Part shown: piece by piece, positions 11,405 to 34,521 of the stretch
How positions within the stretch are numbered: the stretch's first letter is position 1
Layout of the letters: every line of letters starts with the position of its first letter
Origin: Chitinolyticbacter meiyuanensis
GTDB lineage: Bacteria; Pseudomonadota; Gammaproteobacteria; Burkholderiales; Chitinibacteraceae
Assembly: GCF_008033135.1 (NCBI RefSeq)
Contig: NZ_CP041335.1
Span: 1,303,925-1,367,924 of the forward strand
DNA: 64,000 bases
Direction of reading: 5' to 3'
Made by a program: the position numbers and the translations under genes
The notes under the pieces: generated by a model
The model's input: only the letters and a program-made list of their open reading frames with translations
Databases searched by the model: none
What the model was told of the DNA's origin: nothing

Positions 11405-12567
11405 ACGGCCAGCTGACCGCCACCGACGTCGACGGCGACCCGCTGAGCTTCAGCAAGGGCAGCGACCCGGCGCACGGCACGGTCACGGTCAACCCGGACG
11501 GCAGCTGGACCTACACGCCGAACGCCAATTACAACGGCAGCGACAGCTTCACCGTCACGGTCAGTGACGGCCAGGGCGGCACCGACACCGTCACCGTCAA
11601 CGTCGGCATCACCCCGGTGGCCGACCCGGCCGTGATTGGCGGCGACGACCAAGGCGCCGTCACCGAAGACCTCGGCGTGGTCGCCGGCAAGCTCAGCGAC
11701 ACCGGCACGCTCACGGTGAGCGACCCGGATGCCGGGCAATCGAGCTTCAGCGCCGGTGCCGCCACCCCGGTGGGCGCCACCCTGGGTGGCCTCACCATCG
11801 ATGCGGCCGGTCACTGGACCTACCAGGTCGACAACGCCGCCGTGCAATACCTCAAGGCCGGCGAGACCAAGACCGAACAGTTCACGGTGCAGAGCGCCGA
11901 CGGCACCAGCCACGTCATCAGCGTGGTGATCACCGGCACCAACGACGGCCCGGTGGCCAATGCCGACGTCGCCAGCACCGCCATCAACACCCCGCTCAGC
12001 AACATCGACGTGCTGGCCAACGACACCGACGTCGACGGCAACCCGCTGACGGTGACGAATGCCAGCCTGGTCGACCCCAGCAAGGGCACGGTCACGCTCA
12101 ACCCGGACGGCACGCTCAACTTCGTGCCGGCCAGCAACGTCACCGGCCCGGTCAGCATCAGCTACCAGATCAAGGACAGCGAAGGCGCCACCGCCACTGG
12201 CACCTTGACGGTCAACGTCGGCGCCAACACCCCGCCGACCGGGGCCGACCAGACCGTCACGCTGCTGGAAGACGGCAGCCACGGCTTCAGCGCCGGCGAC
12301 TTCGGCTTCAACGACAGCGATGTGGGTCAGACCTTCCAGGCGGTGCGGATCGACAGCCTGCCGGGTGCCGGCAGCCTGACGCTGAACGGCGTCCCGGTCA
12401 GCGCCAACCAGGTGATCAACGTCGCCGACCTTGGCAACCTGGTGTTCACGCCGGCCGCCAACGCCAACGGCGTGGGCTATGCCAGCTTCACCTTCAGCGT
12501 GCAGGACAGCGCGGGTGGGTTCGACACGGTGCCGAACACGGTGCGCTTCAACGTCACGGCGGTGAAC
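5099..12567 (+). repeat. Six tandem 1,245-bp coding repeats
   Basis: Units start at 5099, 6344, 7589, 8834, 10079 and 11324. The period is exactly 1,245 bp (415 codons), except for the last unit at 1,244 bp. By eye the copies are identical at nucleotide level, including third positions, apart from the single missing C. Each unit encodes about four cadherin/VCBS-like domains. A diverged partial copy of the first domain precedes the array (about 4843-5098). Confidence 0.97.
11385..11387 (+). other. Frameshift site: CCCC reduced to CCC in repeat unit 6
   Basis: Units 1-5 read ACCACCCCGGAAGAC at this position, and unit 6 reads ACCACCCGGAAGAC. Unit 6 is 1,244 bp against 1,245 bp for the other five. 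The remainder of the unit and the following 10.5 kb stay open in the restored frame. Confidence 0.95.
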
Positions 12568-18500: not shown

Positions 18501-21500
18501 CGCCACGATCTACTTCAAGCCGAACGCGGATTGGAATGGCACCAACAGCTTCCAGTACAGCGCCACCGACAACAACGGCCTGGTGTCGACCAGCAATGCG
18601 ACTGGCACCATCACCGTCAACTCGGTGAACGATGCGCCGGTACCACAGGCGGTGACTGCGACGGGCAACGAAGACACGGTGATCGCAGTCAACCTGAGTG
18701 GCACCGACGTCGATGGCACGGTGGCCAGCTTCAAGCTGACCGGCCTGCCGGGCAACGGCACGTTCTACAGCGACGCTGCCGCTACCAACCCACTGACGCT
18801 GGCCAGCGTGATCAACGCCACCAGCAACGGCGCCACGATCTACTTCAAGCCGAACGCGGATTGGAATGGCACCAACAGCTTCCAGTACAGCGCCACCGAC
18901 AACAACGGCCTGGTGTCGACCAGCAATGCGACTGGCACCATCACCGTCAATGCGGTGAATGACGCGCCGACCACTACCGGCGGTTCGGTCACCGGCACTG
19001 AAGACACGCCGCTGGTGCTGACCTGGAGCCAGTTCAACGCCAGCGATGTTGATACCCCGGCCAGCGGCCTTTCGGTGAAGATGATCGGCCTGCCGGCCGA
19101 TGGTACCGTGCAGTACAACAACGGCAGCAGCTGGGTCACCGTCACTGCCAACCAGCTAGTCAGCAAGGCGGACATCGATGCTGGCAAGCTGCGCTTCGTG
19201 CCCGATACCCATGAATCGGGCAGCAATGCCTACAGCACTACGGGTACCGGTGATCAGAAGTCCGACTACGCCAAGTTCACCTACCAGATCAGCGATGGCA
19301 GCGTCACCAGCAGCACCGCCACCATGACGGTGGACATCACGCCGGTGGCTGACAAACCGACGTTGACGCTCAATGCGCCGGCCGCCCAGACGGTGTTCAA
19401 CACCACCTGGGAATCGGTCGCCAACAGCGATGACAGCTCGGAGGGCGTCAACGCCACCACGCTGGAAGGGTGGACGTTGGTCACCACGCCCGACTCGTTC
19501 TCGGGCGGCCTCAACCGCTTTGAGGTGTGGTCGAGCGGTGACCAGATCAGCAACCAGGCTGGCACCATGATCACTGGCGTCGGCGCACCGGGCGGCAACG
19601 GCAACTGGCTGGAGCTGAACAACGCATCCTCCAACAGCCTGCCGCAGACGCTGGGCATTGAGCGCAGCGTCAGCACGGCGGTGGGGCAGGTCTACACCCT
19701 GTCGTTCGATTACGCCGGCCGCTCGGGCTACAGCACCGCCTACACGCAGATCGCCATCCTGGTCGACGGTGTGAAGGTGGCAACGTATTCGAGCACCAGC
19801 CCGCAAGGCGGCTTGAACTGGGAAGAGCTGAAGTACAGCTTCACCGGTGACGGCAACGCACACACCATCCGCATCATCACCGATGCGACAAGCTTCGACA
19901 GCTCGGGCCGTGGCGCGATGATCGACGACATCAAGATCGAGTCGAGCTCCGGCATCGTTGCGGGCAACGCCAGCGGCGGCAAGACGGAAGTAACGCTTGC
20001 CAACTACGTGAGCGGCCAACTGGTCGATACCGATGGCTCGGAAAGCCTGACCTATCGCTTTACCGGCCTGCCGACCGGCACCGTGATCACCACGTCCGGC
20101 AACAGCAGCGGCTACGTGATCAGCAACGGTGGCATCACCATCTCGGCCGCTGAGCTCGCGTCCGCCAAGCTGGTGCTGCCGAGCAGCTACACCAGCGGCA
20201 CACTCAATGTCGGCGTGTCGTCGATCGCGACCGAAGGCGCCAACGCCAGCAGCGACAGCACCAGTGGCACGCTGACGCTGAACGTGATGGCGACCGGCCT
20301 TTCCAAGACCACGGTGACCGATACCGGCTCGCCAGTGGCGGTGGCGGACAGCTACACCACGCCGGAAGACCAGAGCATCACCTTCAATCCGCTGTCCAAC
20401 GACACGTTGCGCGATGGCGCACGCATTGCCGGCTTCACCCAGCCAGCCAATGGCAGCCTCACGTTGAACGCGGACGGCACGCTCACCTACAACCCGCCGG
20501 CCAACTACAACGGCACGACCACGTTCAGCTACACACTGATTGATGGCAACGGCCAGAACAGCACGGCTACGGTTACGCTCAATGTCACGCCGGTGAATGA
20601 TGCGCCGGTGGTCGACAGCCACAGCATCACGGCCAAGGAAGGTGTGCCGACCGCACTGGCGATCGCTGCACCAACCGATGTCGATGGCGACAGGCTCACC
20701 GTCACCATCACCGGGTTGCCGACGCAGGGCACGGTGATGACCGAGGGCGGCACGGTGGTGCAGAACGGCCAGGTGATCTCGATCAACCAGTTGCAAAACC
20801 TGGTCTACGTCAGCCCGACCACCATCACGTCGACCACCAACGTGGGCAGCCTCAGCTACAGGGTCAATGACGGCACCACGAGCACCAACGGCGCCATCGC
20901 GATCACGGTGACCGACAACCCGAACGTGATCACCGGCCACGACGGCGTGGGCACCTACTACGTCGATGGGGCCGAGTCGGGTGCTGGCAATACCTTCTAC
21001 GTGGCGAGCTCGGCGTACAACGCTGGCAACGGCCAGCCGGCAGGGGGCTACGATCTGCGCACGGTGACGACCACCGGCAAGGAGCAGGTCATCTTTACCG
21101 GCGGCAGCAACGACCATGTGGAGGCCGGTGCCGGCAACGACATCATCTTCATGGGCGAAACGCAGAGCAACGACAACTCGGTGGCGCTGACCACCCAGGC
21201 GGAGATGTTCACCGGCTCGCGCAACATGTTCATGACCACGGCCGACAGCAACCTGCTCAACAGCAGCGACAAGCTGGTGCAGACCGTCGTCAACCAGATG
21301 CAGCCGGTGTCCGACCTTGCCAATGCCGGTAGCGGTGACGACGTGATCTACGGCCAGGGCGGTACCGATGCGCTGTACGGTGGTGCCGGTGATGACAAGC
21401 TGTATGGCGGCGATGGCATCGACGCGTTGCGTGGCGGCGCCGGCAACGACCTGATCGTGGGTGGTTCCGGTAGCGACCTGCTGCGTGGCGACATGGGCGA

Positions 21501-21945
21501 CGACGTGTTCAAGTGGACACTGGGTGACCAGTCGGCAACAGCGGGTGTGTCCAACGCCGGTGGCAGCAATGGGCTCTACTTGCCAAGCAGCACCAAGATT
21601 GTGGCCGGTGCGACCGACCTGATCGTGGATTTCAACGCCAGCACCACCAGTGGCAACAACGACAAGCTGGACCTGCGCGACCTGTTGCAGAACGAGTCGC
21701 ACACCGGCACCAACGTTGGCAACCTGGGCAACTACCTGCACTTCGAAACCATCAGCAACACCGCCGGCGGCAAGAGCACCATCGTGCATATCAGTCACGA
21801 TGGCGACTTTTCCGGCGGCTACAACAACGGGGCGGCGGAAGACCAGACCATCGTCCTGCACGGTGTGGACCTGGGCGCCACCGGCAACAACGATGCCGCG
21901 GTGATCCAGGATCTGCTGACCAAGGGCAAGCTGATCACCGATTGA
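11401..21945 (+). CDS. Giant LapA-type RTX adhesin, C-terminal part (continuation after frameshift)
   Basis: This is the remaining 3,514 codons of the same adhesin. The GTG at 11401 is just the first possible start after the frameshift and is probably not a natural start. In order, it holds the rest of the sixth 415-residue unit, four 326-residue units (12568-16479), two 110-residue units, and a PA14-like domain (about 17150-17700, LSAQYYAYHEG to KPELS). A cadherin-like domain and three more 110-residue units follow. After these comes a jelly-roll-like segment (19380-19960), then further cadherin-like domains. The end has RTX nonapeptides (GGAGDDKLYGG, GGAGNDLIVGG; 21328-21510) and a C-terminal type I secretion domain ending in LITD. 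With one base restored, the gene 4262-21945 would encode 5,894 residues. It is followed by a strong terminator. Confidence 0.9.
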   Translation: MNGQLTATDVDGDPLSFSKGSDPAHGTVTVNPDGSWTYTPNANYNGSDSFTVTVSDGQGGTDTVTVNVGITPVADPAVIGGDDQGAVTEDLGVVAGKLSDTGTLTVSDPDAGQSSFSAGAATPVGATLGGLTIDAAGHWTYQVDNAAVQYLKAGETKTEQFTVQSADGTSHVISVVITGTNDGPVANADVASTAINTPLSNIDVLANDTDVDGNPLTVTNASLVDPSKGTVTLNPDGTLNFVPASNVTGPVSISYQIKDSEGATATGTLTVNVGANTPPTGADQTVTLLEDGSHGFSAGDFGFNDSDVGQTFQAVRIDSLPGAGSLTLNGVPVSANQVINVADLGNLVFTPAANANGVGYASFTFSVQDSAGGFDTVPNTVRFNVTAVNDAPIAAPDSNTTAEDTPLTVTAANGLLANDSDVDGNPLTITQFSVANVAGTFTAGQTATIAGVGSLTINGNGSYSFVPAANYNGPVPVATYTVSDGTTTATSTLTLNVTAVADPTVTAPDTLTVAEDSGTSTGNVLSNDSDPDGPLSVSQFVVSGTTYTIAAGGSATATLAGVGTLVMNSNGSYSFTPATNYNGSVPPVTYTATDGTSSATNTLTISVTAVDDPSVLAPDSKTVAEDNVASGNVLSNDSDVDNVLSVASFSVTGVPGSFSAGQTATLAGVGSFTLGSNGDYTFTPVANWNGNVPQVNYTTNTGSSSTLNITVTAVNDAPIAAPDSNTTAEDTPLTVTAANGLLANDSDVDGNPLTITQFSVANVAGTFTAGQTATIAGVGSLTINGNGSYSFVPAANYNGPVPVATYTVSDGTTTATSTLTLNVTAVADPTVTAPDTLTVAEDSGTSTGNVLSNDSDPDGPLSVSQFVVSGTTYTIAAGGSATATLAGVGTLVMNSNGSYSFTPATNYNGSVPPVTYTATDGTSSATNTLTISVTAVDDPSVLAPDSKTVAEDNVASGNVLSNDSDVDNVLSVASFSVTGVPGSFSAGQTATLAGVGSFTLGSNGDYTFTPVANWNGNVPQVNYTTNTGSSSTLNITVTAVNDAPIAAPDSNTTAEDTPLTVTAANGLLANDSDVDGNPLTITQFSVANVAGTFTAGQTATIAGVGSLTINGNGSYSFVPAANYNGPVPVATYTVSDGTTTATSTLTLNVTAVADPTVTAPDTLTVAEDSGTSTGNVLSNDSDPDGPLSVSQFVVSGTTYTIAAGGSATATLAGVGTLVMNSNGSYSFTPATNYNGSVPPVTYTATDGTSSATNTLTISVTAVDDPSVLAPDSKTVAEDNVASGNVLSNDSDVDNVLSVASFSVTGVPGSFSAGQTATLAGVGSFTLGSNGDYTFTPVANWNGNVPQVNYTTNTGSSSTLNITVTAVNDAPIAAPDSNTTAEDTPLTVTAANGLLANDSDVDGNPLTITQFSVANVAGTFTAGQTATIAGVGSLTINGNGSYSFVPAANYNGPVPVATYTVSDGTTTATSTLTLNVTAVADPTVTAPDTLTVAEDSGTSTGNVLSNDSDPDGPLSVSQFVVSGTTYTIAAGGSATATLAGVGTLVMNSNGSYSFTPATNYNGSVPPVTYTATDGTSSATNTLTISVTAVDDPSVLAPDSKTVAEDNVASGNVLSNDSDVDNVLSVASFSVTGVPGSFSAGQTATLAGVGSFTLGSNGDYTFTPVANWNGNVPQVNYTTNTGSSSTLNITVTAVNDAPVPQAVTASGNEDTVIAVNLSGTDVDGTVASFKLTGLPANGTFYSDAAATNPLTLASVINATSNGATIYFKPNADWNGTNSFQYSATDNNGLVSTSNATGTITVNSVNDAPVPQAVTASGNEDTVIAVALKGTDVDGTVASFKLTGLPANGTFYSDAAATNPLTLASVINATSNGATIYFKPNADWNGTNSFQYSATDNNGLVSTSNATGTLTVLPVNDAPVAVNDPGTLSGLSAQYYAYHEGTDGANLTSLTMVRNFIAANTADATFVAKSFNYTLGNGDLGGNGNLQTFLGSDSASLNVDPENSSDAIIRMAGTVQLAAGTYNFKVTADDGYIILIDGVMVAQVNANQSPTGTVHPTFTVAEGGAHTIEILYWDQGGQAVFKPELSNNGGTSYQSLGSYTLGQEQPAFVTTEDNALTISPAALLGNDSDVDGDILTIVSVQAATHGSVALVNGNVVFTPASNYFGPASFTYTISDGHGGTSTATVNLNVTSVNDAPVPQAVTASGNEDTVIAVNLSGTDVDGTVASFKLTGLPANGTFYSDAAATNPLTLASVINATSNGATIYFKPNADWNGTNSFQYSATDNNGLVSTSNATGTITVNSVNDAPVPQAVTATGNEDTVIAVALKGTDVDGTVASFKLTGLPGNGTFYSDAAATNPLTLASVINATSNGATIYFKPNADWNGTNSFQYSATDNNGLVSTSNATGTITVNSVNDAPVPQAVTATGNEDTVIAVNLSGTDVDGTVASFKLTGLPGNGTFYSDAAATNPLTLASVINATSNGATIYFKPNADWNGTNSFQYSATDNNGLVSTSNATGTITVNAVNDAPTTTGGSVTGTEDTPLVLTWSQFNASDVDTPASGLSVKMIGLPADGTVQYNNGSSWVTVTANQLVSKADIDAGKLRFVPDTHESGSNAYSTTGTGDQKSDYAKFTYQISDGSVTSSTATMTVDITPVADKPTLTLNAPAAQTVFNTTWESVANSDDSSEGVNATTLEGWTLVTTPDSFSGGLNRFEVWSSGDQISNQAGTMITGVGAPGGNGNWLELNNASSNSLPQTLGIERSVSTAVGQVYTLSFDYAGRSGYSTAYTQIAILVDGVKVATYSSTSPQGGLNWEELKYSFTGDGNAHTIRIITDATSFDSSGRGAMIDDIKIESSSGIVAGNASGGKTEVTLANYVSGQLVDTDGSESLTYRFTGLPTGTVITTSGNSSGYVISNGGITISAAELASAKLVLPSSYTSGTLNVGVSSIATEGANASSDSTSGTLTLNVMATGLSKTTVTDTGSPVAVADSYTTPEDQSITFNPLSNDTLRDGARIAGFTQPANGSLTLNADGTLTYNPPANYNGTTTFSYTLIDGNGQNSTATVTLNVTPVNDAPVVDSHSITAKEGVPTALAIAAPTDVDGDRLTVTITGLPTQGTVMTEGGTVVQNGQVISINQLQNLVYVSPTTITSTTNVGSLSYRVNDGTTSTNGAIAITVTDNPNVITGHDGVGTYYVDGAESGAGNTFYVASSAYNAGNGQPAGGYDLRTVTTTGKEQVIFTGGSNDHVEAGAGNDIIFMGETQSNDNSVALTTQAEMFTGSRNMFMTTADSNLLNSSDKLVQTVVNQMQPVSDLANAGSGDDVIYGQGGTDALYGGAGDDKLYGGDGIDALRGGAGNDLIVGGSGSDLLRGDMGDDVFKWTLGDQSATAGVSNAGGSNGLYLPSSTKIVAGATDLIVDFNASTTSGNNDKLDLRDLLQNESHTGTNVGNLGNYLHFETISNTAGGKSTIVHISHDGDFSGGYNNGAAEDQTIVLHGVDLGATGNNDAAVIQDLLTKGKLITD
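12568..16479 (+). repeat. Four tandem 978-bp coding repeats
   Basis: Units start at 12568, 13546, 14524 and 15502, each 978 bp (326 codons). Each encodes three cadherin-like domains of about 105-110 residues that start with PDS/PDT and a glutamate-aspartate pair. The only internal difference noticed is synonymous: GGC in unit 3 (C at 15012) where the others have GGA. The extreme 3' end of unit 4 also varies slightly. Confidence 0.96.
16480..17139 (+). repeat. Two 330-bp coding repeats (first group)
   Basis: Units at 16480 and 16810 encode a 110-residue domain beginning APVPQAVTASGNEDTVIAV. The copies show scattered synonymous differences, unlike the homogenised arrays upstream. The main protein difference is NLSGTDV against ALKGTDV. 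Confidence 0.95.
17971..18960 (+). repeat. Three 330-bp coding repeats (second group)
   Basis: Units at 17971, 18301 and 18631 are of the same 110-residue family as 16480-17139. They are separated from that pair by a PA14-like and a cadherin-like domain. NLSG/ALKG and ANGT/GNGT variants are shuffled between copies, which suggests recombination between the two groups. Confidence 0.95.
21328..21510 (+). repeat. RTX calcium-binding nonapeptide block
   Basis: About six GGxGxDxUx-type nonapeptides are encoded here (GSGDDVIYG, GGAGDDKLYGG, GGDGIDALRGG, GGAGNDLIVGG, GGSGSDLLRGD, MGDDVF). They bind Ca2+ and drive folding outside the cell in type I secreted proteins. The block lies about 145 residues before the C-terminus, as in LapA-class adhesins. 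Confidence 0.93.
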
Positions 21946-21961
21946 GGCTGCGGCCCCATTG

Positions 21962-21992
21962 AAAACGGCGCTCCGCGGAGCGCCGTTTTTTT
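21962..21992 (+). terminator. Bidirectional rho-independent terminator between adhesin and lapD
   Basis: A near-perfect palindrome AAAACGGCGCTC-CGCG-GAGCGCCGTTTT is followed by more T. It is flanked by A on the left and T on the right, so it can end transcription from the adhesin (+) and from lapD (-). Confidence 0.9.
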
Positions 21993-22005
21993 ATGCAGGT
22001 GCCGA

Positions 22006-23928
22006 TCAGGTGGAAGCGCGGTTGGTCGTCACTGGACCGGTCATGCCCTGCACTCCGAGTTTGGCGAGCATGTCCCATTCGGCATTGGTCTGCACGCCCT
22101 CGGCGATGGTAAGCAAGCCGTTGCCGTCGGCCACGCCGACGATGGCCTTGATCAGCTGCTGGTTGCCGGCGTGCGCCTCGATGCCCTGGACGAAGCTGCT
22201 GTCGATCTTCAGGTAATCGAGCTGCAGTTCGAACAGCTGCGGAATGCTGCCGAAATGGCGGCCGAAGTGCTCGATGCCCACCTTGCAGCCCAACGGACGC
22301 AGCCGGCGGGCGAACTCGGCGAGCGCCAGCATTTCGTCGCGGAAACCGAATTCGTTCACTTCCAGCCACAGCCTGCCGGTATGCGCCTTCTGGCTGCGCA
22401 GCAGCTCCAGCAGTTTGTCGACGAACTGCACATCGGCAATCGAGACGGCGGACAGGTTGACCGCCACATCGGCCTGGCTGTGCGCCAGTTCGGCGCAGGC
22501 GAGGCGCACGGTTTCCAGATCCAGCGCGCTGGTCATGCCCAGCCGGCTGGCCATGGGCATGAAGGTGCCGGCGGTCAGCAGCTGGCCATCTGCTTGCTGC
22601 AGCCGCAGCATCAGTTCGCGATGCCAAAGCTCACCATCGCGGCGCAGGACCGGGTAGCTGGCGAGCCGGAACGCGCCTTCGTCGAGTGCGTGGCGCAGTA
22701 CCTGCTGCCAATCCTGGCCGGAACGGGCGGGCAGGGCACTGCCCAGTTGCGCCGCGTGGATGCCGTTGCTGCTGCCTTCAGCCTGGGCCAGCGCTTCATC
22801 GGTGCGCGCCAGCACGGTGCCGATGGCCTCGCCGGCGCGGTATGGGGTGATGCCGATGGCGGCGAGGTCGTGCTGGTCGGCGAGCTCGGCGCGTCGCAGC
22901 TCGGCGAGGCCCGCCTGCATGCGCTCGGCCAGTTCGCCGGCGCGCGCCGCATCGTCGCCCGGGAGCAGCACGGCGAAGTCGGCGCCGTTCAGCCGGGCCA
23001 GCAGCGCATCGGGCTCATGGCCGAGCACGGCACCAAGCTTGCCGGCCACCGATTGCAGGAACTGGTCGGCCCGTTCGCGGCCGAGCCGGCGGTTGAGTCC
23101 CATCAGATCGCGCAACCGCAGCAGCAGCAGGGCGCCTTCCGGGGCCGATTCCTCGTCGCCCAGCGCCTGTGCCAGTCGCCCCATGAAGAAACTGCGGTTG
23201 GGTAGCTGGGTGAGCGCATCGCGGTTGGCTTCGCTGCGCAGTGCGTCGATGCGTGCTGCCTGTTCGGCGAACATGGTCTTCACCCGCTCGACCATGGTGT
23301 TCATCGCCTGCACCACGGCGCGCAGCTCGGTCACCCGCGGTACGGGGATGGTGACGAAACGACGCTCGCTGATCGCTTCGGCCTGGCCCACCATCTGCAC
23401 GATCGGGCGCTTCACCCACAGGAACAACCGGTGCAGCACCAGCCCTGACAGTAGGCCGGCGGCGCTGATCCACAGCAGCAGCTTGACTGCGCCATCCCAC
23501 AACGACTGGTAGGCGAAGCGCGAGTGCGCCATCACGGTGACGCGGCCTGCCTGCTTCCAGCCATCGCTGACATCGGCCTGCCCGGCACTGACCTCGATCG
23601 GGAACAGGTCGATGAACCATTGCGGCACGCTGCCAGTCTCCCCGGGATTGACGCGCTCGGCGACGACCTTGCCGCCAGTATCGCTGTAGCGCACCACCTC
23701 GAAGTGGCCGCTGTCGAACAGCGCAGTGACCATCAGCTCAATGGTGGCCTCGTCCTTGGGCTGCTGCGTCATCGACAGCGCCAAGCTGGCTGCGCTGTCG
23801 GTGCTTTGCGCGTACAGCTGCTGTTCCAGGTAGTTGCGTGCCGTATAGAGGCTGACAATGAAGCTGCCAAGGAAGGCGATCACGGTGGCGGTGATCACCA
23901 GCAGCCAGAGTTGTCGGAGCAATGACAT
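22006..23928 (-). CDS. lapD: LapD-type c-di-GMP receptor (inside-out signalling protein)
   Basis: This inner-membrane receptor binds cytoplasmic c-di-GMP and sequesters the protease LapG in the periplasm, so that the adhesin stays on the surface. The 640-residue protein has TM1 (about 5-28), a LapD/MoxY-type periplasmic domain with Trp124 in an SDGW loop (LapD Trp125 contacts LapG), TM2 (about 148-170) and HAMP. Degenerate GGDEF (RLNGADF at 312-318) and EAL (HREL at 436-439) domains follow. Loss of both catalytic signatures fits a receptor rather than an enzyme. The start is at 23928, where AGGA sits about 8 nt upstream; the longer upstream frame would overlap lapG. It lies 10 bp downstream of lapG. 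Confidence 0.95.
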   Translation of the reverse strand: MSLLRQLWLLVITATVIAFLGSFIVSLYTARNYLEQQLYAQSTDSAASLALSMTQQPKDEATIELMVTALFDSGHFEVVRYSDTGGKVVAERVNPGETGSVPQWFIDLFPIEVSAGQADVSDGWKQAGRVTVMAHSRFAYQSLWDGAVKLLLWISAAGLLSGLVLHRLFLWVKRPIVQMVGQAEAISERRFVTIPVPRVTELRAVVQAMNTMVERVKTMFAEQAARIDALRSEANRDALTQLPNRSFFMGRLAQALGDEESAPEGALLLLRLRDLMGLNRRLGRERADQFLQSVAGKLGAVLGHEPDALLARLNGADFAVLLPGDDAARAGELAERMQAGLAELRRAELADQHDLAAIGITPYRAGEAIGTVLARTDEALAQAEGSSNGIHAAQLGSALPARSGQDWQQVLRHALDEGAFRLASYPVLRRDGELWHRELMLRLQQADGQLLTAGTFMPMASRLGMTSALDLETVRLACAELAHSQADVAVNLSAVSIADVQFVDKLLELLRSQKAHTGRLWLEVNEFGFRDEMLALAEFARRLRPLGCKVGIEHFGRHFGSIPQLFELQLDYLKIDSSFVQGIEAHAGNQQLIKAIVGVADGNGLLTIAEGVQTNAEWDMLAKLGVQGMTGPVTTNRAST

Positions 23929-23938
23929 CGTTGAATCC

Positions 23939-24619
23939 TCAAGGATCGTAGCCCTGCGCCTGCATGCGCAGTAGCAGATTGGTCCAGCGCGACAGTCGTT
24001 CGACCGGCGCAGGGGCCGCGCCGCCGACATACACGCCGTCGCGGTTGAAGCTGAACACCGGCAGCAGGTCCGGCCGGCGCGAGGCCGGGCGGATCTCGCC
24101 GATCAGGTTGTCGAGTACCAGCGGCTCGGCCTGCGGGGTGTCGTAATAGGTCAGTACCATGTGCGCCTGGGTCACCTTGCTTTGTGGCCCGCCGATGCGG
24201 GCCTTGACGTAGGTGAGGCGCAGCTTGGCCGGCTCGACCCCGGCCTCGACCAGGGTGAAGTACTTGGCAATGGTGAAATCCTCGCAATCACCGCCCATCT
24301 TGCCGATGGTTTCCAGCGGTGTCGCCCAGTAGTCGGCTTCACCCCAGAGCGCACTGTCGTCTAGAAAGGCGATATGGCGGTTGAAGAGATCATTGATGCG
24401 GGCCAGCCGTACGTCGTCGGGCGCGCCACGCAGCTCGCCGATCAAGCGACGCCAGTCGGTATACAGGGTGATGGGCTTGCTGCCGAAGCGCTCGCCAAGA
24501 AAGGCCTGCATGCGCGCGGTGTTGACGGCGGCAAGGGCAAGGCCCAGCGACAGCAGGATTGTAAGAAATCCGCTGAATACTGGGAAAGGTTTTATCCGGT
24601 AACCGGAACTAAACCACAC
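23939..24619 (-). CDS. lapG: LapG-type periplasmic cysteine protease
   Basis: This transglutaminase-like (BTLCP) protease cuts the adhesin retention module at the TAAG site when c-di-GMP is low. The 226-residue protein has an N-terminal hydrophobic helix (about 12-32) for export or anchoring. The expected catalytic triad is visible: Cys112 in GGDCEDF, His153 in QAHMVL and Asp170 in LVLDNL. The start is GTG at 24619; an in-frame stop lies shortly upstream and there is no ATG before the signal helix. lapG-lapD are co-oriented 10 bp apart, and lapE is divergent, so the 172-bp gap upstream probably holds both promoters. Confidence 0.94.
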   Translation of the reverse strand: MWFSSGYRIKPFPVFSGFLTILLSLGLALAAVNTARMQAFLGERFGSKPITLYTDWRRLIGELRGAPDDVRLARINDLFNRHIAFLDDSALWGEADYWATPLETIGKMGGDCEDFTIAKYFTLVEAGVEPAKLRLTYVKARIGGPQSKVTQAHMVLTYYDTPQAEPLVLDNLIGEIRPASRRPDLLPVFSFNRDGVYVGGAAPAPVERLSRWTNLLLRMQAQGYDP

Positions 24620-24728
24620 GTTGGTAAGCTCTATGCTGACGGATTAAAAAGGGTTGGTCCTACGCGCAATGCCGGCAAAACGGTTGTTTTCGCAGACAGC
24701 AGGCCAGAATGCACGCCTGTTCTCTGCT

Positions 24729-24761
24729 AGAATCGGGGAAAAAATATTGTCGATATTGTCA
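24729..24761 (+). promoter_or_regulatory. Candidate lapE promoter with extended -10 and a direct repeat
   Basis: TGC-TAGAAT (-10 at 24729-24734, extended TGn) lies 58 bp before the lapE ATG without a good -35. Just downstream is the direct repeat ATATTGTC-G-ATATTGTC (24745-24761), whose position in the early transcript or promoter region suggests a regulator site. The regulator is unknown. Confidence 0.45.
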
Positions 24762-24791
24762 GAAAAACGAACATCTTCGAAGGGGTAGTCC

Positions 24792-26600
24792 ATGCGATGC
24801 CGACCGTTGTTACTCGCTCTCTCCCTGGCCTTGGCCGGGACCGCTCAAGCAACCACGCTCGATCAAGCCGTCGAAAAGACCATCCTGCGCAACCCGGATG
24901 TAAAGACCCGCTGGTACCAGTTCCGCGCCAGTAGCGAAGCACAGCGTGTTGCCGAAGGCGGCTTCCTGCCCCGCGTCGACCTGCAGGCCGGTGCCGGTCA
25001 GGTCTGGCAACATGATGAGGGTAGCAGCAAGGATAACTATTACAACCCGAGCGCCACGCTCTCGTTGCGCCAGTTGCTGTTCGATGGCTTCGCCACCCGC
25101 GATCAGGTTCGGCGCCTCGGCTACGACAAGCAATCCGCCTATTTCGAACTGCTGGCGAGTTCCGATGAATTCGCGCTGCAGGCTGTGGCCGCCTACTACG
25201 ACGTGCTGCGTTATCGCGAACAGGCCGATCTGGCCCGACGCAACCTGGCAACCCACCAGGATATCTACAAGCTGATCGAGGAGCGCACCCAGGCCGGCGT
25301 TGGCCGTCGGGTCGACCTCGAGCAGGCTGCCGGTCGCCTGGCTCTGGCCGAATCCAACCTGATGACCGAACAGGCCAACCTCTACGATGTGTCGGCACGC
25401 TATGCCCGGCTGGTCGGCGAAGAGGCCGACGAGCTGACCCGTCCGGCTTCGCTCGATACCGCGCTGCCGCAGGCCAGCGAACTGCTGTCCCTGGCGGTGA
25501 AGCAGAATCCGTCGTTCCAGGCCTCGGTTGCGGCCATCCGCGCGGCACGTGCCGGGGTGGGCGTGAGCAAGTCTGGCTACTACCCGACACTGGAGCTGCA
25601 GGCGAGCCAGGGTTACGAGCGCAATCAGGACGGTGTCGATGGAGACTACCGGACCAGCCGCGTGATGCTGATGCTCAACTACAACCTGTTCAGTGGCGGC
25701 GCCGACCGCGCCCGCGAGCGGCAATCGCTGGAGCAGCTGAATGCGTCGTTCGAAGTGCGCGACAAGGCCTGCCGCGACATCCGTCAGAGCACGGCCATTG
25801 CCTGGAACGATGTGCAGCGGCTCAATCGCCAGCTGACCTACCTCGAGCAGCACGAGCTGTCCACGCGCAAGGCGCGTGATGCCTATCGCCAGCAATTTGA
25901 TATCGGCCAGCGTACCTTGCTCGACGTGCTCGATACCGAGAACGAACTGTTCGATGCGGCGCGCTCGCTGGTCAATGCCCGCATCGATCGCGAAATCGCA
26001 GTGGCGCGCGTGCTGGCACAAACTCACCAGCTGCTACCGACGCTGAAGCTGGCGCCGCTGCAAGGCGACATCAACACCAACGAATTCGGCGGCGGCGAAC
26101 TCACCGACGAGCAGATCGGCTGCGCGCTCAACCTGCCGGACAGCTCGGCGCAGTATGCCGAGCCGCTGCCGCTGGCGCCGCTGAAACAGGGCGCGCCCGA
26201 TGCCGTGCCGCGTAGCATCGAGCCGGCCGCGGTCAAGCCGGTGTCTTCTGCCCCGGTTGCGCCGCAGTCGCTGCAGCAGTCGATCGACGGCTGGGCCAAG
26301 GATTGGTCGAACAAGAACGTGCAGGGCTACCTCGCCCGCTACGGCAGTGAGTTCAAGCCCGAAGGTGGGCTTGATCGCGCGAGCTGGGAAGCGCAGCGCG
26401 GCGACCGGCTGAATCGGCCCGGCGCGATCACCGTGAAGCTTGAGGACATGAAGGTACTCAAGCAATCGTCGCGTGCGGCCGAGGTCCAGTTCACCCAGCA
26501 TTACGCCGCAGCTGGCTACAGCGACAGCGTGCAGAAGCAGCTGATCCTGCAGCAGGAAAAGGACGGCTGGAAGATCGTGCGCGAGCGCGTACTCGATTGA
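24792..26600 (+). CDS. lapE: TolC-family outer-membrane channel (LapE-like) with extra C-terminal NTF2-like domain
   Basis: This is the outer-membrane duct of the LapBCE secretion machine. The 602-residue precursor has a signal peptide (1-20, ending GTAQA), two TolC/OEP repeats (about 21-430, including RQLLFDGFATRDQVR and LNYNLFSGGADRARERQSLE), and a Pro/Ala-rich linker (about 450-490). A C-terminal domain of about 105 residues (SIDGWAKDWSNKNVQGYLA to WKIVRERVLD) resembles the NTF2-like domain found in Cds6/L,D-transpeptidase proteins. That domain is not part of classical TolC. The start at 24792 has AAGGGG 8 nt upstream. The gene is divergent from lapG and ends in a terminator shared with the Nudix gene. 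Confidence 0.92.
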   Translation: MRCRPLLLALSLALAGTAQATTLDQAVEKTILRNPDVKTRWYQFRASSEAQRVAEGGFLPRVDLQAGAGQVWQHDEGSSKDNYYNPSATLSLRQLLFDGFATRDQVRRLGYDKQSAYFELLASSDEFALQAVAAYYDVLRYREQADLARRNLATHQDIYKLIEERTQAGVGRRVDLEQAAGRLALAESNLMTEQANLYDVSARYARLVGEEADELTRPASLDTALPQASELLSLAVKQNPSFQASVAAIRAARAGVGVSKSGYYPTLELQASQGYERNQDGVDGDYRTSRVMLMLNYNLFSGGADRARERQSLEQLNASFEVRDKACRDIRQSTAIAWNDVQRLNRQLTYLEQHELSTRKARDAYRQQFDIGQRTLLDVLDTENELFDAARSLVNARIDREIAVARVLAQTHQLLPTLKLAPLQGDINTNEFGGGELTDEQIGCALNLPDSSAQYAEPLPLAPLKQGAPDAVPRSIEPAAVKPVSSAPVAPQSLQQSIDGWAKDWSNKNVQGYLARYGSEFKPEGGLDRASWEAQRGDRLNRPGAITVKLEDMKVLKQSSRAAEVQFTQHYAAAGYSDSVQKQLILQQEKDGWKIVRERVLD

Positions 26601-27359: not shown

Positions 27360-29330
<1,971 letters not shown>

Positions 29331-29377: not shown

Positions 29378-29443
29378 AATGTAAAACCCTTAGCCGCTGC
29401 AATCCAATCGTGTTTTCTGATCCGGGGTATCAGTTCTGCTGAT
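29378..29443 (-). promoter_or_regulatory. acs promoter with triple CTGAT/ATCAG operator
   Basis: Read on the minus strand, the operator is ATCAG-N5-CTGAT-N7-ATCAG (29443-29417). It is followed by a -35 TTGGAT (29407-29402), an 18-bp spacer and a -10 TACATT (29383-29378), about 48 bp before the acs ATG. The same architecture occurs at 31228-31293 and 33463-33529. Operators just upstream of -35 are typical of LysR-type activators. Confidence 0.75.
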
Positions 29444-29448
29444 CTAAG

Positions 29449-29467
29449 TTGCACCAACTTGGTGCAA
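29449..29467. promoter_or_regulatory. Perfect 9-bp-arm palindrome TTGCACCAA-C-TTGGTGCAA
   Basis: The palindrome lies between the acs operator and the terminator of the MHS transporter gene. It may be a second regulator site for acs. Related TGCACCA/TGGTGCA segments recur beside the operator at 31271-31299. Function unknown. Confidence 0.4.
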
Positions 29468-29491
29468 AAACAGGGCGCCTCAGCGCCCTGT
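29465..29491 (-). terminator. Terminator of the MHS transporter gene
   Basis: On the minus strand, ACAGGGCGC-TGAG-GCGCCCTGT is followed by TTTTTG, 17 bp after the stop at 29509. Confidence 0.88.
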
Positions 29492-29508
29492 CGTTGGGGG
29501 AGCGTGGT

Positions 29509-31155
29509 TCAGTCGTCGGCGTAGATATCGCGATCCTTGGTTTCCGGCACGCAGAACACGCCGATCACGAAGGTGGCCAGTGCCACGACGATGGGATACC
29601 ACAGGCCGTAGTAGATGTTGCCGGTCGCGGCCACCATGGCGAAGGCCACCGTCGGCAGGAAGCCGCCGAACCAGCCGTTGCCGATGTGGTAGGGCAGTGA
29701 CATCGACGAGTAGCGGATGCGGGTGGGAAAGAGCTCCACCAGCCAGGCCGCGATCGGGCCGTACACCATGGTCACGAACAGTACCAGGATGGTCAGCAGC
29801 ACGATCACCATCGGCGTGTTCATCTGCTCCGGATCCGCCTTGGCCGGGTAGCCGCCGGTGGTCAGCGCGGCGCCGAGTGCGAGGTTGAACGCATCGGACT
29901 TGGCGGTGAACTCCTCCTTCGGCAAACCCACGCCCTCGAAGCTCTCGATGCGAGTGCCGCCCACCGTGACAGTGGCGACGGTGCCGGCCGGTGCGGCTTG
30001 GTTGGTATAGGGCACACCCTTCTTCGCCAGCGCGGTCTTGATGATGTCGCACGATTGCTTGAAGGACGCCTTGCCGATCGGATCGAACTGGAAGGCGCAG
30101 CGTTCAGGATCGGCCGTGACCACCACAGGTGCGGTGGCAACTGCCTGTTCCAGGGCCGGATTGGCGAAGTGGGTGAGCCCCTTGAAGATGGGGAAGTAGG
30201 CGAGCGCGGCGATCAGGCAGCCGGCCAGGATGATGCGCTTGCGGCCGATCCGGTCCGACAGCGAGCCGAAGAAGATGAAGAACGGCGTGGCAATCGCCAG
30301 CGAGACGGCGATCAGGATGTCGGCGCGGTTGGCATCGACGCCTAGCGTCTTGGTCAGGAAGAAGAGGGCATAGAACTGGCCGGTGTACCACACCACGGCC
30401 TGACCGGCCGTGCCGCCGAACAGCGACAGCAGCACTACCTTGAGGTTGGGCCAGCGCAGGAAGGCTTCGGTCAAAGGGGCCTTGGAGTGGCGGCCTTGCT
30501 CCTTCATCTTCTTGAACACTGGCGATTCGTTCAGCTGCAGCCGGATGTACACCGACACGATCAGCAGCACGATGGAGACGAGGAAGGGCACGCGCCAGCC
30601 CCAATCCTCGAAGGCCTCCTTGCCGAAGCTGTTGCGGCAGATCCAGATCACCAGCAGCGACAGGAACAAGCCGAGCGTCGCCGTGGTCTGGATCCAGCTG
30701 GTGAAGAAGCCGCGCTTGCCGTGCGGCGCATGCTCGGCGACATAGGTCGCGGCGCCGCCGTACTCGCCACCGAGCGCCAGGCCCTGCAGCAGCCGCAGGA
30801 TGATCAGGATCACCGGCGCCGCCACGCCGATGCTGGCGTAGCCCGGCAACAGGCCGACGATGGCGGTGGAAGTGCCCATGATCAGGATGGTGATCAGGAA
30901 GGTGTACTTGCGGCCGATCATGTCACCGAGGCGGCCGAACACGATGGCGCCGAACGGGCGCACCGCGAAGCCTGCCGCGAAGGCCAGCAGCGCGAAGATG
31001 AAGGCGGTGGTTTCGTTGACGCCGGCAAAGAAATGCTTGGCGATGATGACTGCGAGCGAGCCGTACAGGTAGAAGTCGTACCACTCGAACACCGTGCCCA
31101 GCGAAGACGCGAAGATGACGCGCTTCTCGTCCTTGGTGAGGGGTTGCTTTTCCAT
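29509..31155 (-). CDS. MFS transporter, metabolite:H+ symporter (MHS) family
   Basis: This is a 12-helix inner-membrane symporter of the MHS family (ShiA/ProP/KgtP relatives). The signatures include FEWYDFYLYGSLA near the N-terminus, GRLGDMIGRK between helices 2 and 3, and the matching second-half loop GSLSDRIGRKRI. Residues about 331-449 form a long soluble insert with two cysteines between predicted helices. Many homologues in acetate loci have this insert, but the substrate cannot be read from sequence. Two ATGs are possible; 31155 (MEKQP) is chosen because GGAG lies 6 nt before it, whereas the ATG at 31161 directly abuts the GGAG. Context between acs and actP and a shared operator suggest transport of a short-chain carboxylate. 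Confidence 0.88.
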   Translation of the reverse strand: MEKQPLTKDEKRVIFASSLGTVFEWYDFYLYGSLAVIIAKHFFAGVNETTAFIFALLAFAAGFAVRPFGAIVFGRLGDMIGRKYTFLITILIMGTSTAIVGLLPGYASIGVAAPVILIILRLLQGLALGGEYGGAATYVAEHAPHGKRGFFTSWIQTTATLGLFLSLLVIWICRNSFGKEAFEDWGWRVPFLVSIVLLIVSVYIRLQLNESPVFKKMKEQGRHSKAPLTEAFLRWPNLKVVLLSLFGGTAGQAVVWYTGQFYALFFLTKTLGVDANRADILIAVSLAIATPFFIFFGSLSDRIGRKRIILAGCLIAALAYFPIFKGLTHFANPALEQAVATAPVVVTADPERCAFQFDPIGKASFKQSCDIIKTALAKKGVPYTNQAAPAGTVATVTVGGTRIESFEGVGLPKEEFTAKSDAFNLALGAALTTGGYPAKADPEQMNTPMVIVLLTILVLFVTMVYGPIAAWLVELFPTRIRYSSMSLPYHIGNGWFGGFLPTVAFAMVAATGNIYYGLWYPIVVALATFVIGVFCVPETKDRDIYADD

Positions 31156-31227
31156 TGCCATCTCCAGTGTGCCCCGACGCGCGGGCTGAGAATTGGGGTG
31201 TCATCATCGCAAGGATGATTGCGACTG

Positions 31228-31293
31228 AATCTAAGAAGCGGTTTGGGGACATGCCAATCGGATTTTCTGATGCACCAAATCAGCATTTCTGAT
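31228..31293 (-). promoter_or_regulatory. MHS transporter promoter with triple CTGAT/ATCAG operator
   Basis: On the minus strand: operator ATCAG-N5-CTGAT-N7-ATCAG (31293-31267), -35 TTGGCA (31257-31252), 18-bp spacer, -10 TAGATT (31233-31228). The spacing of operator to -35 equals that at acs, and the block CGATTGG is conserved at all three sites. A TGCACCA...TGGTGCA dyad (31271-31299) is superimposed. Confidence 0.75.
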
Positions 31294-31378
31294 GGTGCAT
31301 CGCGTCAGCTGGTGGTGCAAGAAGGGCGTGGGAAAGATTGCAGGGTTTGTCATCCGCGTTGCGACTGGTGTGGGCATG

Positions 31379-31405
31379 AAAAAGGCGCGGCCGTGGCCGC
31401 GCCTT
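31379..31405 (-). terminator. Terminator downstream of actP
   Basis: On the minus strand, AAGGCGCGGCC-AC-GGCCGCGCCTT is followed by TTTC, 17 bp after the actP stop at 31423. Confidence 0.88.
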
Positions 31406-31422
31406 GTAAAGACCGTTACCGG

Positions 31423-33111
31423 TCAGTGTTGTGATGCGCCTTCTGCGCCGATACCGGTCATCGCCCGGATGAACTGCGGCAGGAACAGCGCTTTTTCCCG
31501 CGCCGCCTGCGCGCTGGTATCGAGTACCGACACCAGCCAGATGCTGATGAAGGCGAGCGGCATCGAGAAGATGGCCGGATTTTCGTACGGGAAGATCGCA
31601 GCGGCGTGGCCCAGCGTCTTCACCCATACGGCCGGCCCCAACACGATCATCACCACGGCGCTGACGAGGCCGATCAGGCCGCCGATCACCGCGCCGCGCG
31701 TGGTCAGCCCCTTCCAGAACATCGAGAGGAACAGCACCGGGAAGTTGGCGGAGGCTGCGATGGCGAACGCGAGGCCGACCATGAAGGCGACGTTCTGGTT
31801 CTCGAACGCGATCCCGAGCACGATGGCAACGAGGCCGAGCACCACGGTGGCGATCTTGGAGACGCGGATTTCCTTCGCCTCATCGGCATGGCCACGGGCG
31901 AATACATTGGCGTAGAGGTCGTGCGACACCGCCGATGCACCCGACAGCGCGAGGCCCGAAACCACGGCGAGGATGGTGGCGAAGGCCACGGCCGAGATGA
32001 AGCCGAGGAAGTAGTCGCCACCGACGGCTCCAGCCAAGTGTACCGCCGCCATGTTGGCACCACCGATCAGCTGCTGCACCGGGTTACCGTCCTTCATGAT
32101 GGTCTCGGTGAATTCGGGCTTGCCGAGTACCAGCATGATGGCGCCGAAACCGATGATGAAGGTCAGGATGTAGAAGTAACCGATGAAGCCGGTGGCGACG
32201 AACACACTCTTGCGCGCTTCCTTGGCGTCCTTCACCGTGAAGAAGCGCATCAGGATGTGCGGCAGGCCGGCGGTGCCGAACATCAGGCCCACGCCCAGTG
32301 AGATCGCGTCGATCGGATTGGAGACCAGGCCGCCCGGACTCATGATGGCCTGTGCCTTGGGGTGACCGGCCACGGCGGTCTGGAACAGGCTCTCGAAGCT
32401 GAAACCGGTGGCCGCGAGCACCATCACCGCCATGAAGGTGGCGCCAGCCAGCAGCATGATGGCCTTGATGATCTGCACCCAGGTGGTCGCCAGCATGCCG
32501 CCGAAGGTGACGTACAGCACCATCAACACGCCGACGAGAACTACCGCCGAGCTGTAGCTCATGCCGAACAGCAGCTGGATCAGCTTGCCGGCACCGACCA
32601 TCTGTGCGATCAGGTAGAGCGCCACCACCACCAGCGTGCCGACGGCGGCAAAGGTGCGCACTGGTGTCTGCGCCAAGCGATACGAGGCGACATCGGCAAA
32701 GGTGAACTTGCCGAGGTTGCGCAGCCGCTCGGCTACCAGGAAGGTGATGATGGGCCAGCCGACCAGGAAGCCGATCGAGTAGATCAGGCCATCGAAGCCG
32801 CTCGTCATCACCAGCGCCGAGATACCCAGAAAGGACGCCGCCGACATGTAGTCGCCAGCGATCGCGAGGCCGTTCTGGAAGCCGCTGATGCCGCCGCCCG
32901 CCGCGTAGAAATCCTTGGCCGAGCGGGTGCGCCGCGACGCCCACCAGGTGATGCCCAGTGTGAAGGCGACAAAGACGAAGAACATCACGATGGCGTGCCA
33001 GTTCAGGCTGCGCTGGTGTACTTCGCCACTGATGGCATCGGCGGCCCAGGCGGGCAGGGCAAGGGCCTGTGCGGCGAGCGCGACGGCGAGGTTGCGGTGG
33101 CGGCGGTTCAT
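31423..33111 (-). CDS. actP: Cation/acetate symporter ActP
   Basis: This is an inner-membrane sodium:solute symporter for acetate and similar short monocarboxylates. The 562-residue protein has a cleavable-looking N-terminal hydrophobic segment ending PAWAAD and then 13 or so transmembrane helices of the SSS family. Recognisable segments are [20 protein letters not shown] and [16 protein letters not shown], both typical of ActP. The start codon overlaps the yjcH stop by 4 bp. This yjcH-actP pair next to acs is the classic acetate-uptake arrangement. Confidence 0.97.
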
Positions 33112-33419
33112 GCGCGCACCTCCCGCACCAGTTCGGCATTGAGCTGGTCGAACTCGCGGTTGGCGCGGCGTACGTAGATGCCGGTGATGACGAAGGCCGA
33201 CACGATCACGAAGATGCCGGCGGGGATGCCGATGGTGGTCACGCTGCCCGCCGCGATCGGCGTGCCGAAGGTGGCCGGCGAGAATGCGATGATGAGGATG
33301 AAGCCGTAGTAGATGGCCAGCATCACGATCGACAGCAACCAGCCGAAGCGGGTCTTCTTACGCACGAGTTCGGCGAACTTGGGGTTGTCCTCGATTCGGC
33401 GGATCAGGGTTTCATCCAT
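33108..33419 (-). CDS. yjcH: DUF485 small membrane protein (YjcH)
   Basis: This 103-residue protein has two transmembrane helices and matches the DUF485/YjcH family that accompanies ActP. The usual start motif is present ([21 protein letters not shown]). The start is placed at 33419 because GGAG lies 6 nt upstream; an upstream in-frame start at 33464 would include promoter sequence. It is co-transcribed with actP through a 4-bp overlap. It probably assists ActP assembly or function, but the exact role in the family is not settled. Confidence 0.94.
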
Positions 33420-33462
33420 GCTTGTCTCCGGTGGAGCGCGGACCGGCCGCGCCAGCGAAGCC

Positions 33463-33529
33463 AATCTAAAAGTCGCGCTCGGCCCCTCGCCAATCGCAAT
33501 TTCTGATATTGCGGATCAGCAATCCTGAT
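33463..33529 (-). promoter_or_regulatory. yjcH-actP promoter with triple CTGAT/ATCAG operator, divergent from lysR
   Basis: On the minus strand: ATCAG-N5-CTGAT-N7-ATCAG (33529-33503), -35 TTGGCG (33493-33488), 19-bp spacer, -10 TAGATT (33468-33463). The site lies in the 217-bp gap shared with the divergent LysR gene, the usual place for a LysR operator. An adjacent TTGCG-C-CGCAA palindrome spans 33531-33541. Confidence 0.78.
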
Positions 33530-33636: not shown

Positions 33637-34521
33637 ATGGAAATCTACCAACTGCGCACGCTGGTCGCGGTTGCCCAGCAGGGGCACCTGACCCAGGCTG
33701 CCGAGCTGCTGCACCTGTCGCAGCCGGCGGTGACCGCCCAGATCAAGGCCTTGGAAGAGGAACTCGGCATCGCCTTGTTCGAGCGCTATCCGGGTGGTGT
33801 CCAGCTCACCGAAGCAGGCAAGATGCTATTGCCTGATGCCGAGCGCATCCTGGCCCTGTCACGCGACATGCTGCACCGCGCCCGGGCGATGGCGGGCGAA
33901 CCCAAAGGCAAGCTGCGCATCGGCACTATCGGTGTGCCGGCCCGCCTCAAGCTGGGGCCGCTGCTGGCGGTGCTGCGCGAGCGCTATCCGCTGATCACCG
34001 TGCAGACCCAACACGCGATCTCCGGCGTGGTGCTGAACGACGTGCGCAAGAAGGCCTTGGATGGCGGCTTCTACCTTGGCCGCAATCCCTATCAGAACGT
34101 GAACACGCTGGCATTGTCCGAGCTGCGTTTTTGCGTGGCGATGCCAGCTGCATGGGTCGATGCCTATGCTGAGGCGGACTGGAAAGTGCTCGGCCAGGCG
34201 CCATGGCTGGGCTTGTCGCAGTTCACCAGTCTGTCGTCGATCACGCAGGAGCTGTGGCGCGAGCGCAATATCGCGCCCAAGAAGGTGGGCGAGTTCGACG
34301 AGGAGGCGACGCTGGTGGAGATGCTGAAGGCGGGCGTCGGCATCTCCATCCTGGCGGAGCGCACCGCGCAGCGCTTTGCCGCCGATGGCTCGATCACCCT
34401 CTGGCGTGGCGGCGAGATCGTGATCACGGCGCCGCTGCAGTTCATCTATTCGGCAGAGCGCGAGATGGATCCGATGATCGGCATGCTGCGCGAAGTGCTG
34501 CGCGAAGTCTGGTCGCTCTAG
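33637..34521 (+). CDS. LysR-type regulator, probable controller of the acetate genes
   Basis: This 294-residue LysR-type regulator has an N-terminal winged helix (EIYQLRTLVAVAQQGHLTQ, then LSQPAVTAQIKALEEELGI) and a C-terminal periplasmic-binding-like effector domain (about 90-294). The ATG at 33637 gives the canonical N-terminus; the upstream ATG-equivalent at 33610 adds nine non-conserved residues. It is divergent from yjcH-actP with the shared operator between them. Together with copies of that operator upstream of acs and the MHS gene, this makes it the best candidate activator of acetate uptake and activation. That role is inferred and not established for this protein. Confidence 0.9.
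   Translation: MEIYQLRTLVAVAQQGHLTQAAELLHLSQPAVTAQIKALEEELGIALFERYPGGVQLTEAGKMLLPDAERILALSRDMLHRARAMAGEPKGKLRIGTIGVPARLKLGPLLAVLRERYPLITVQTQHAISGVVLNDVRKKALDGGFYLGRNPYQNVNTLALSELRFCVAMPAAWVDAYAEADWKVLGQAPWLGLSQFTSLSSITQELWRERNIAPKKVGEFDEEATLVEMLKAGVGISILAERTAQRFAADGSITLWRGGEIVITAPLQFIYSAEREMDPMIGMLREVLREVWSL

Follow-up and report, generated by a model that had tools for sequence, protein, structure and literature searches.

What controls the genes for acetate uptake in Chitinolyticbacter meiyuanensis is the question raised by the locus described here. The locus lies within a 64,000-nt stretch (the window) of a single-contig genome of 4.33 Mb. In order from the lower coordinates, the minus strand carries acs (acetate–CoA ligase), a gene for an MHS-like carrier (mhs), actP (cation/acetate symporter) and yjcH, and a gene for a LysR-type regulator (lysR) is divergent from these. 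A preliminary description had proposed that acs, mhs and yjcH-actP are each preceded by the same operator and promoter, and that together they form a LysR regulon. The arrays are present at all three positions, and the regulon reading is supported, as the site tracks the LysR gene both in the family and in the order, and has the two-box layout of LysR-type regulators. The protein encoded by lysR very probably binds the operators of acs, mhs and yjcH-actP and is predicted to activate all three as an acetate-uptake regulon.

Operators and promoters

The pattern CTGAT-N7-ATCAG-N5-CTGAT has exactly three matches in the window, at 29417–29443, 31267–31293 and 33503–33529. When up to two mismatches are allowed the number rises to six, which are the same three sites read in both directions; in 100 shuffles the mean is 0.07. 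Read toward the genes, each operator starts with ATCAG-N5-CTGAT and continues 22 bp downstream with ATCAG-N5-nnCGAT, each of the two being a T-N11-A box. A −35-like TTGGnn opens with the last T of the second box, and after it come a spacer of 18–19 bp and a −10 box. The spacers and the −10 boxes (TACATT or TAGATT) given in the preliminary description are correct on reading the sequence. Its three half-sites are also there, but they are not the complete unit, since a fourth half-site, CGAT, closes the array. Because this half-site (YRAT) is conserved about as well as the third, the three half-sites were rejected as the unit in favour of two T-N11-A boxes.

All three operators are on the minus strand. 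That of yjcH-actP (33493–33529), which also lies within the upstream region of lysR, has its ATCAG-N5-CTGAT box at 33529–33515 and its ATCAG-N5-nnCGAT box at 33507–33493. The predicted yjcH promoter (33463–33493) comprises −35 TTGGCG at 33493–33488, N19 and −10 TAGATT at 33468–33463. The mhs operator (31257–31293) is followed by a predicted promoter (31228–31257) with −35 TTGGCA at 31257–31252, N18 and −10 TAGATT at 31233–31228. The acs operator (29407–29443) passes into a predicted promoter (29378–29407) with −35 TTGGAT at 29407–29402, N18 and −10 TACATT at 29383–29378.

Sites were scored with two matrices. The first was built from 25 unique lysR-side sites of 28 loci, leaving out the genome of the window, its congener and a relative with 87% identity in LysR; no acs site was used in its training. 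It scores the mhs site at 50.3, the yjcH-actP site at 49.1 and the acs site at 23.0, the maximum in 1.5 Mb of Markov sequence being 18.5. The second matrix was built from all the sites and has a background maximum of 10.1. Of the 69 non-redundant sites in the logo, 67–69 retain AT at each of the steps 4/5, 17/18, 26/27 and 39/40. The logo consists of two T-N11-A boxes with a 22-bp period, passing directly into TTRGC as the −35. A −10-like hexamer stands at an offset of 19 or 20 from the end of the matrix in 107 of the 119 unique site sequences, following a poor −35. If transcription starts about 7 nt past the −10, the centres of the boxes fall near −65 and −43, which are the usual positions of the recognition site and the activation site of LysR-type activators. 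A T-N11-A box upstream of a divergent target characterizes the LysR class, and here there are two at each site.

Within the genome the operator is specific. The extended pattern ATCA-N7-TGAT-N7-ATCA-N7-YRATTRG, with up to three mismatches, has four matches in the whole genome, of which three are the sites themselves with no mismatch and the fourth is the mhs site on the other strand with three. Its reversed control has none, and a stricter form of the pattern returns exactly the three sites. Thus no further member of the regulon was found in this genome at up to three mismatches to the four-half-site pattern. The bare three-half-site pattern with up to two mismatches has 19 matches in the genome, six from the three sites and 13 elsewhere; the reversed control has only one, and so does not explain the 13 as chance. 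None of the 13 fits the extended pattern. The only one of them with a single mismatch (L004, at 492784) gives 5.4 with one matrix and −5.5 with the other, under the background maxima, and another (L007) has a matrix score below background. Four of the 13 are identical 27-base copies of one element (G000:C1 96091, 2860617, 3468644 and 3801834). In the copy examined it forms a hairpin CCCCCTGATG...CATCAGGGGG, with no tRNA, and adjoins what we take to be the end of a 5S rRNA gene. The element is probably a terminator of the rRNA operons.

Conservation of the operator with the LysR gene

The regulator gene lysR (33637–34521, plus strand) encodes 294 amino acids, comprising an N-terminal HTH_1 domain (PF00126; 83.3 bits, cut-off 26.6) and a C-terminal LysR_substrate domain (PF03466; 104.9 bits, cut-off 28). 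The start is likely to be the ATG at 33637, since the sequence MExYQLRT is kept in orthologs. The helix–turn–helix region is nearly invariant across 19 LysR orthologs. None of the 25 NCBIfam families shown (from a total of 52) reaches its cut-off, the best being NF040786 with 123.3 bits against 250, and a family-level name was therefore dropped. The best match in the PDB is 1ixc, listed as a LysR-type regulatory protein, which we take to be CbnR.

The preliminary description had named loss of the motif in relatives that keep the LysR gene as evidence that would speak against a LysR regulon. In the family the orthologous genes of genomes that keep LysR retain the motif. LysR is found in 40 of 43 family genomes (E up to 1e-60), the 39 other than that of the window having 71–95% identity. 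The family pattern CATCA-N6-CTGAT-N6-CATCA-N4-TTGCAATT, with up to three mismatches, occurs in 36 of the 40 and in none of the three LysR-negative genomes, and its reversed control is absent from all 43. By their coordinates, all 47 matches adjoin lysR or precede acs or mhs. The four LysR-positive genomes without a match (G005, G006, G008 and G010) are all of the same genus (g4), and their sites on the lysR side, which have diverged, reach matrix scores of 45.7–55.7; G006 and G010 are in the training set of the matrix, while G005 and G008 (the latter taken as locus L083 by its coordinates) are outside it. A site on the lysR side is therefore found in 40/40 LysR-positive family genomes, 31 by geometry, seven by pattern, and G005 and G008 by matrix. 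The full AT-N11-AT-N7-AT-N11-AT array with a −35-like end is present in all 31 family lysR loci examined, compared with 1 of 5500 shuffled regions. Forty close orthologs of acs occur in the family; the loci of 30 were fetched, and all 30 have a site scoring at least 23.0 before acs.

A sample of 200 genomes from the order contains LysR in 43 (E up to 1e-50). A strict site is present in 15 of these and in none of the 157 LysR-negative genomes, and its reversed control has no match in any of the 200. By genome this gives p ∼1e-11 in a Fisher test; collapsed by family the counts are 4/17 and 0/34, with p ∼0.01. Of the 200 genomes, 175 contain an ortholog of acs (E up to 1e-250), 41/43 with LysR and 134/157 without, so that the absence of the site is not for want of a target gene. 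In other families the site is often weaker, or lies away from lysR. Sites are found at yjcH-actP-acs of G073 and G114, which is on a different contig from lysR. G197 and G232 have, on a contig separate from lysR, a yjcH-like/MctC-like pair with acs after it, again with a site (the MctC-like protein of G197 is below the MctC cut-off, 576 against 670), and in G068 a second acs on a contig separate from lysR has one. The sites thus appear to follow the targets rather than lysR, which argues for a single protein acting in trans.

The operator was also compared in 80 named loci around LysR orthologs with 42–95% identity, the closest being that of Chitinolyticbacter albus (95%; L064). The lysR gene is divergent from an adjoining yjcH in 60 and from an adjoining mhs in four. 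A site scoring at least 20 is present in 57 loci. There are 77 such matches, of which 53 are before yjcH, 18 before acs, two before mhs and four elsewhere; 73 stand 63–178 bp before yjcH, acs or mhs. Among the four elsewhere, that of L083 precedes a VC_2705-type SSS pair that passes TIGR03647 and TIGR03648, and that of L142 precedes yjcH-like and MctC-like SSS genes (580.7 bits, below the cut-off of 670). The site of L124 lies 0.9 kb upstream from another one, which precedes acs, and that of L143 is near the end of its contig. Nine of the 23 loci without a match of at least 20 have a site by the second matrix (16.8–37.0).

Some loci have additional elements near the site. An Iodobacter-type genome has two tandem sites before acs (L191:1298 and 1381), 83 bp apart and scoring 18.8 and 35.2. 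In five Vogesella loci (L099, L107, L113, L131 and L137) the yjcH site is accompanied by another, weak array located 81 bp upstream. In L013, L014, L022 and L036 the lysR side of the site has an extra block, absent from the window, made up of CTTAC and a GTAG-N14-CTAC palindrome (GTAGTTGC...GCAACTAC in L014) that overlaps a TACAT −10-like box. This block is possibly the lysR promoter, or the site of a second regulator. Small genes beside lysR in two loci were considered as phasin-like, and this was dropped as they have no Pfam match. For deeper LysR orthologs (39–46% identity) the geometry is seen before lysR in three of seven loci. These three (L059, L061 and L063, 39–42% identity) have upstream AT-N11-AT-N7-AT-N11-AT, and only L059 is above the background maximum (22.5 against 10.1). 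The wider LysR family may share the two-box layout.

A regulatory model and its alternatives

In the model that we favour, two LysR dimers, forming a tetramer, would occupy the two boxes from the same side of the DNA helix. The signal would be a small molecule, in the simplest case acetate or a product of it, that shifts the promoter-proximal dimer into contact with RNA polymerase; the promoter itself would be too weak to function alone. Acetate would enter through ActP and the MHS-like carrier and be converted to acetyl-CoA by Acs. As the yjcH operator is shared with the upstream region of lysR, the regulator probably also controls its own gene.

Several observations weigh against this model. 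By the first matrix, acs has the weakest of the three sites in the window. As a control the three LysR-negative family genomes are weak, since they also lack a close acs (none, or one of 56–57% identity) and any ActP match. Relatives are not independent, so the p value by genome is too optimistic and that collapsed by family is the safer figure. In the order, 28 of the 43 LysR-positive genomes are without a strict site, and the exact geometry is found before lysR in nine of 24 out-of-family loci (shuffled, 1/5500) and is missing in 15. Where mhs is beside lysR in G073 and G159 the scores of the arrays (18.2 and 17.7) fall slightly short of the background maximum. The arrays before mhs in the Chitinimonas loci L091, L092 and L094 are weak (5.9, 5.9 and 8.5, where the background maximum of the second matrix is 10.1), and no clear site was found before acs in those Chitinimonas, where there is one low array (L241, 9.2 with the first matrix). 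Lastly, there is no site near lysR in 11 of the 80 named loci, of which six are from Chromobacterium; in these no acs, actP, yjcH or mhs is present in the DNA fetched around lysR, and the three that were followed further (G114, G197 and G232, matched by coordinates) have sites elsewhere in the genome.

A further point of this kind concerns the sign of control. The second box touches the −35, and a promoter-proximal site could also serve repression, with the same LysR at the same sites covering the −35 until released by acetate or a related acid. A divergent regulator beside its target is compatible with either sign. We consider repression unlikely, given that the −35 sequences are poor (TTGGAT, TTGGCA and TTGGCG, and TTRGC in general) and the spacers long (18–19 bp), as for activator-dependent promoters, and that two boxes reaching the −35 are the usual activator layout of the LysR class.

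The sites might alternatively belong to another regulator, with lysR a bystander. The obvious candidate would be a two-component system of the CrbS/CrbR type (MxtR/ErdR), an acetate switch that controls acs in Vibrio and Pseudomonas (PMC5715377 and PMC5436829). The kinase of that system has an SLC5/SSF symporter domain (PMC5715377), whereas the single SSF protein of this genome is ActP; no search for a CrbR-like protein was made. Since two T-N11-A boxes are the layout of the LysR class, and the presence of the site tracks LysR, we regard ownership by another regulator as very improbable. It could also be supposed that the three sites, which are within 4.2 kb of one another, arose by recent copying of a single promoter segment and are not under shared control. 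Yet only the boxes and promoters are alike, the N5 and N7 stretches being different; acs and yjcH retain their sites from genus to genus, and sites are also found at unlinked genes. As copying leaves this gene-by-gene conservation unexplained, we give it almost no weight. Activation by LysR is thus preferred to each of these.

Carriers, known systems and significance

The target genes are all on the minus strand. YjcH (33108–33419, 103 aa) is a DUF485 protein (PF04341). ActP (31423–33111, 562 aa) passes the NCBIfam models NF006903 (946.4 bits, cut-off 750) and NF009135, and is below the narrower TIGR02711 equivalog (896.7 against 1099.25). It is the sole protein with an SSF domain (PF00474) found in the genome. 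Acs (27360–29330, 656 aa) passes TIGR02188 (1003.8 bits, cut-off 724.95) and has one match in its own genome at E up to 1e-150. The mhs gene (29509–31161) encodes an MFS protein of 550 amino acids with the Pfam domains Sugar_tr (PF00083) and MFS_1 (PF07690). It reaches 359 bits in two stretches with TIGR00883, the model of the MHS subfamily, and because this is short of the cut-off of 443.45 the protein is termed MHS-like only.

Other routes to a name for this carrier were not productive. The 120 homologs listed from 8000 have only general names (MFS, MHS, proline/betaine or sialic acid transporter), plasmid records (30 of 135 rows) give MFS transporter or nothing, and matches in the PDB are only to distant phosphate carriers and SV2 proteins. 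By hydropathy the protein has a long non-hydrophobic stretch at residues 334–443. Deh4p, an MHS-family MFS protein, has a long periplasmic loop at 337–454 in the section of PMC2777183 that describes it; the likeness is one of hydropathy, not of sequence alignment. Deh4p and Dehp2 are haloacid permeases of Burkholderia MBA4 that both recognise acetate, and in that organism they are not the main acetate system, as stated in excerpts of PMC3552994. From the loop-like stretch and the recognition of acetate by these permeases, the MHS-like protein is predicted to be a carrier of short-chain acids, probably of acetate.

The carrier located behind the site varies between genomes, and may be YjcH-ActP, an MctC-like SSS protein, a VC_2705-type SSS protein or the MHS-like protein. 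The mhs gene is present in 12 of 60 genomes searched, nine of them with at least 82% identity. In Andreprevotia IGB-42 (G004, L073) there is no match to ActP at E up to 1e-100, a more distant SSS protein being possible, and there is none at the same threshold in four g31 genomes, three of which were matched to named Chitinimonas records. In Andreprevotia and the g31 genomes lysR is divergent from mhs-acs, with mhs in the position of yjcH-actP. The Andreprevotia mhs site is strong (60.8), but its sequence also served in training the matrix, as the site on the lysR side of L024. It is about an even call that one LysR and one operator define acetate uptake in several betaproteobacterial families while the carrier is exchanged, the MHS-like protein being an MFS-type acetate permease that works beside ActP in Chitinolyticbacter and has taken its place entirely in Chitinimonas and Andreprevotia IGB-42. 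In Chitinibacter sp. GC72 (L083:4412–9896) a VC_2705-type SSS pair and downstream genes are located between lysR and yjcH-actP; a strong site (52.8) is at the SSS pair, and yjcH retains a weaker one (22.5).

Elsewhere in the window, 11401–26600 has a 3514-aa open frame followed by a LapD-like protein (22006–24030), which does not reach the NCBIfam LapD cut-off, and a TolC-family protein (24792–26600). This looks like a set for the secretion and release of a large adhesin.

LysR-type regulators act through a recognition site and an activation site, a layout general to the class. The present regulator resembles its class in having HTH_1 and LysR_substrate domains, a divergent target operon and tandem T-N11-A boxes with the proximal box at the −35. 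It departs from known members in its box (ATCAG/CTGAT), in its targets (acs, ActP and the MHS-like carrier) and in having no equivalog among the NCBIfam families shown. CidR, a LysR-type protein that governs acetate production (in the portion of PMC10903459 concerned with it), and AlsR, labelled in NCBIfam as acetoin biosynthesis regulator, share with it the LysR family and a connection with acetate or acetoin metabolism, but they serve pathways that form acetate or acetoin. The window LysR is neither of these, since it scores 91.9 bits for CidR (cut-off 415) and 92 for AlsR (cut-off 430). In the paper titles and abstract openings searched, no LysR regulator of acs or actP is described. The class of regulator and the layout of the operator are well known, while the regulon and the box sequence appear to be undescribed in that literature.

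Chitin breakdown releases acetate, so that the regulon, if the model is correct, would be a central switch for these chitin-using bacteria and for related ones. The operator would serve as a marker for acetate genes in these genomes, and it points to a putative acetate carrier of the MFS type.

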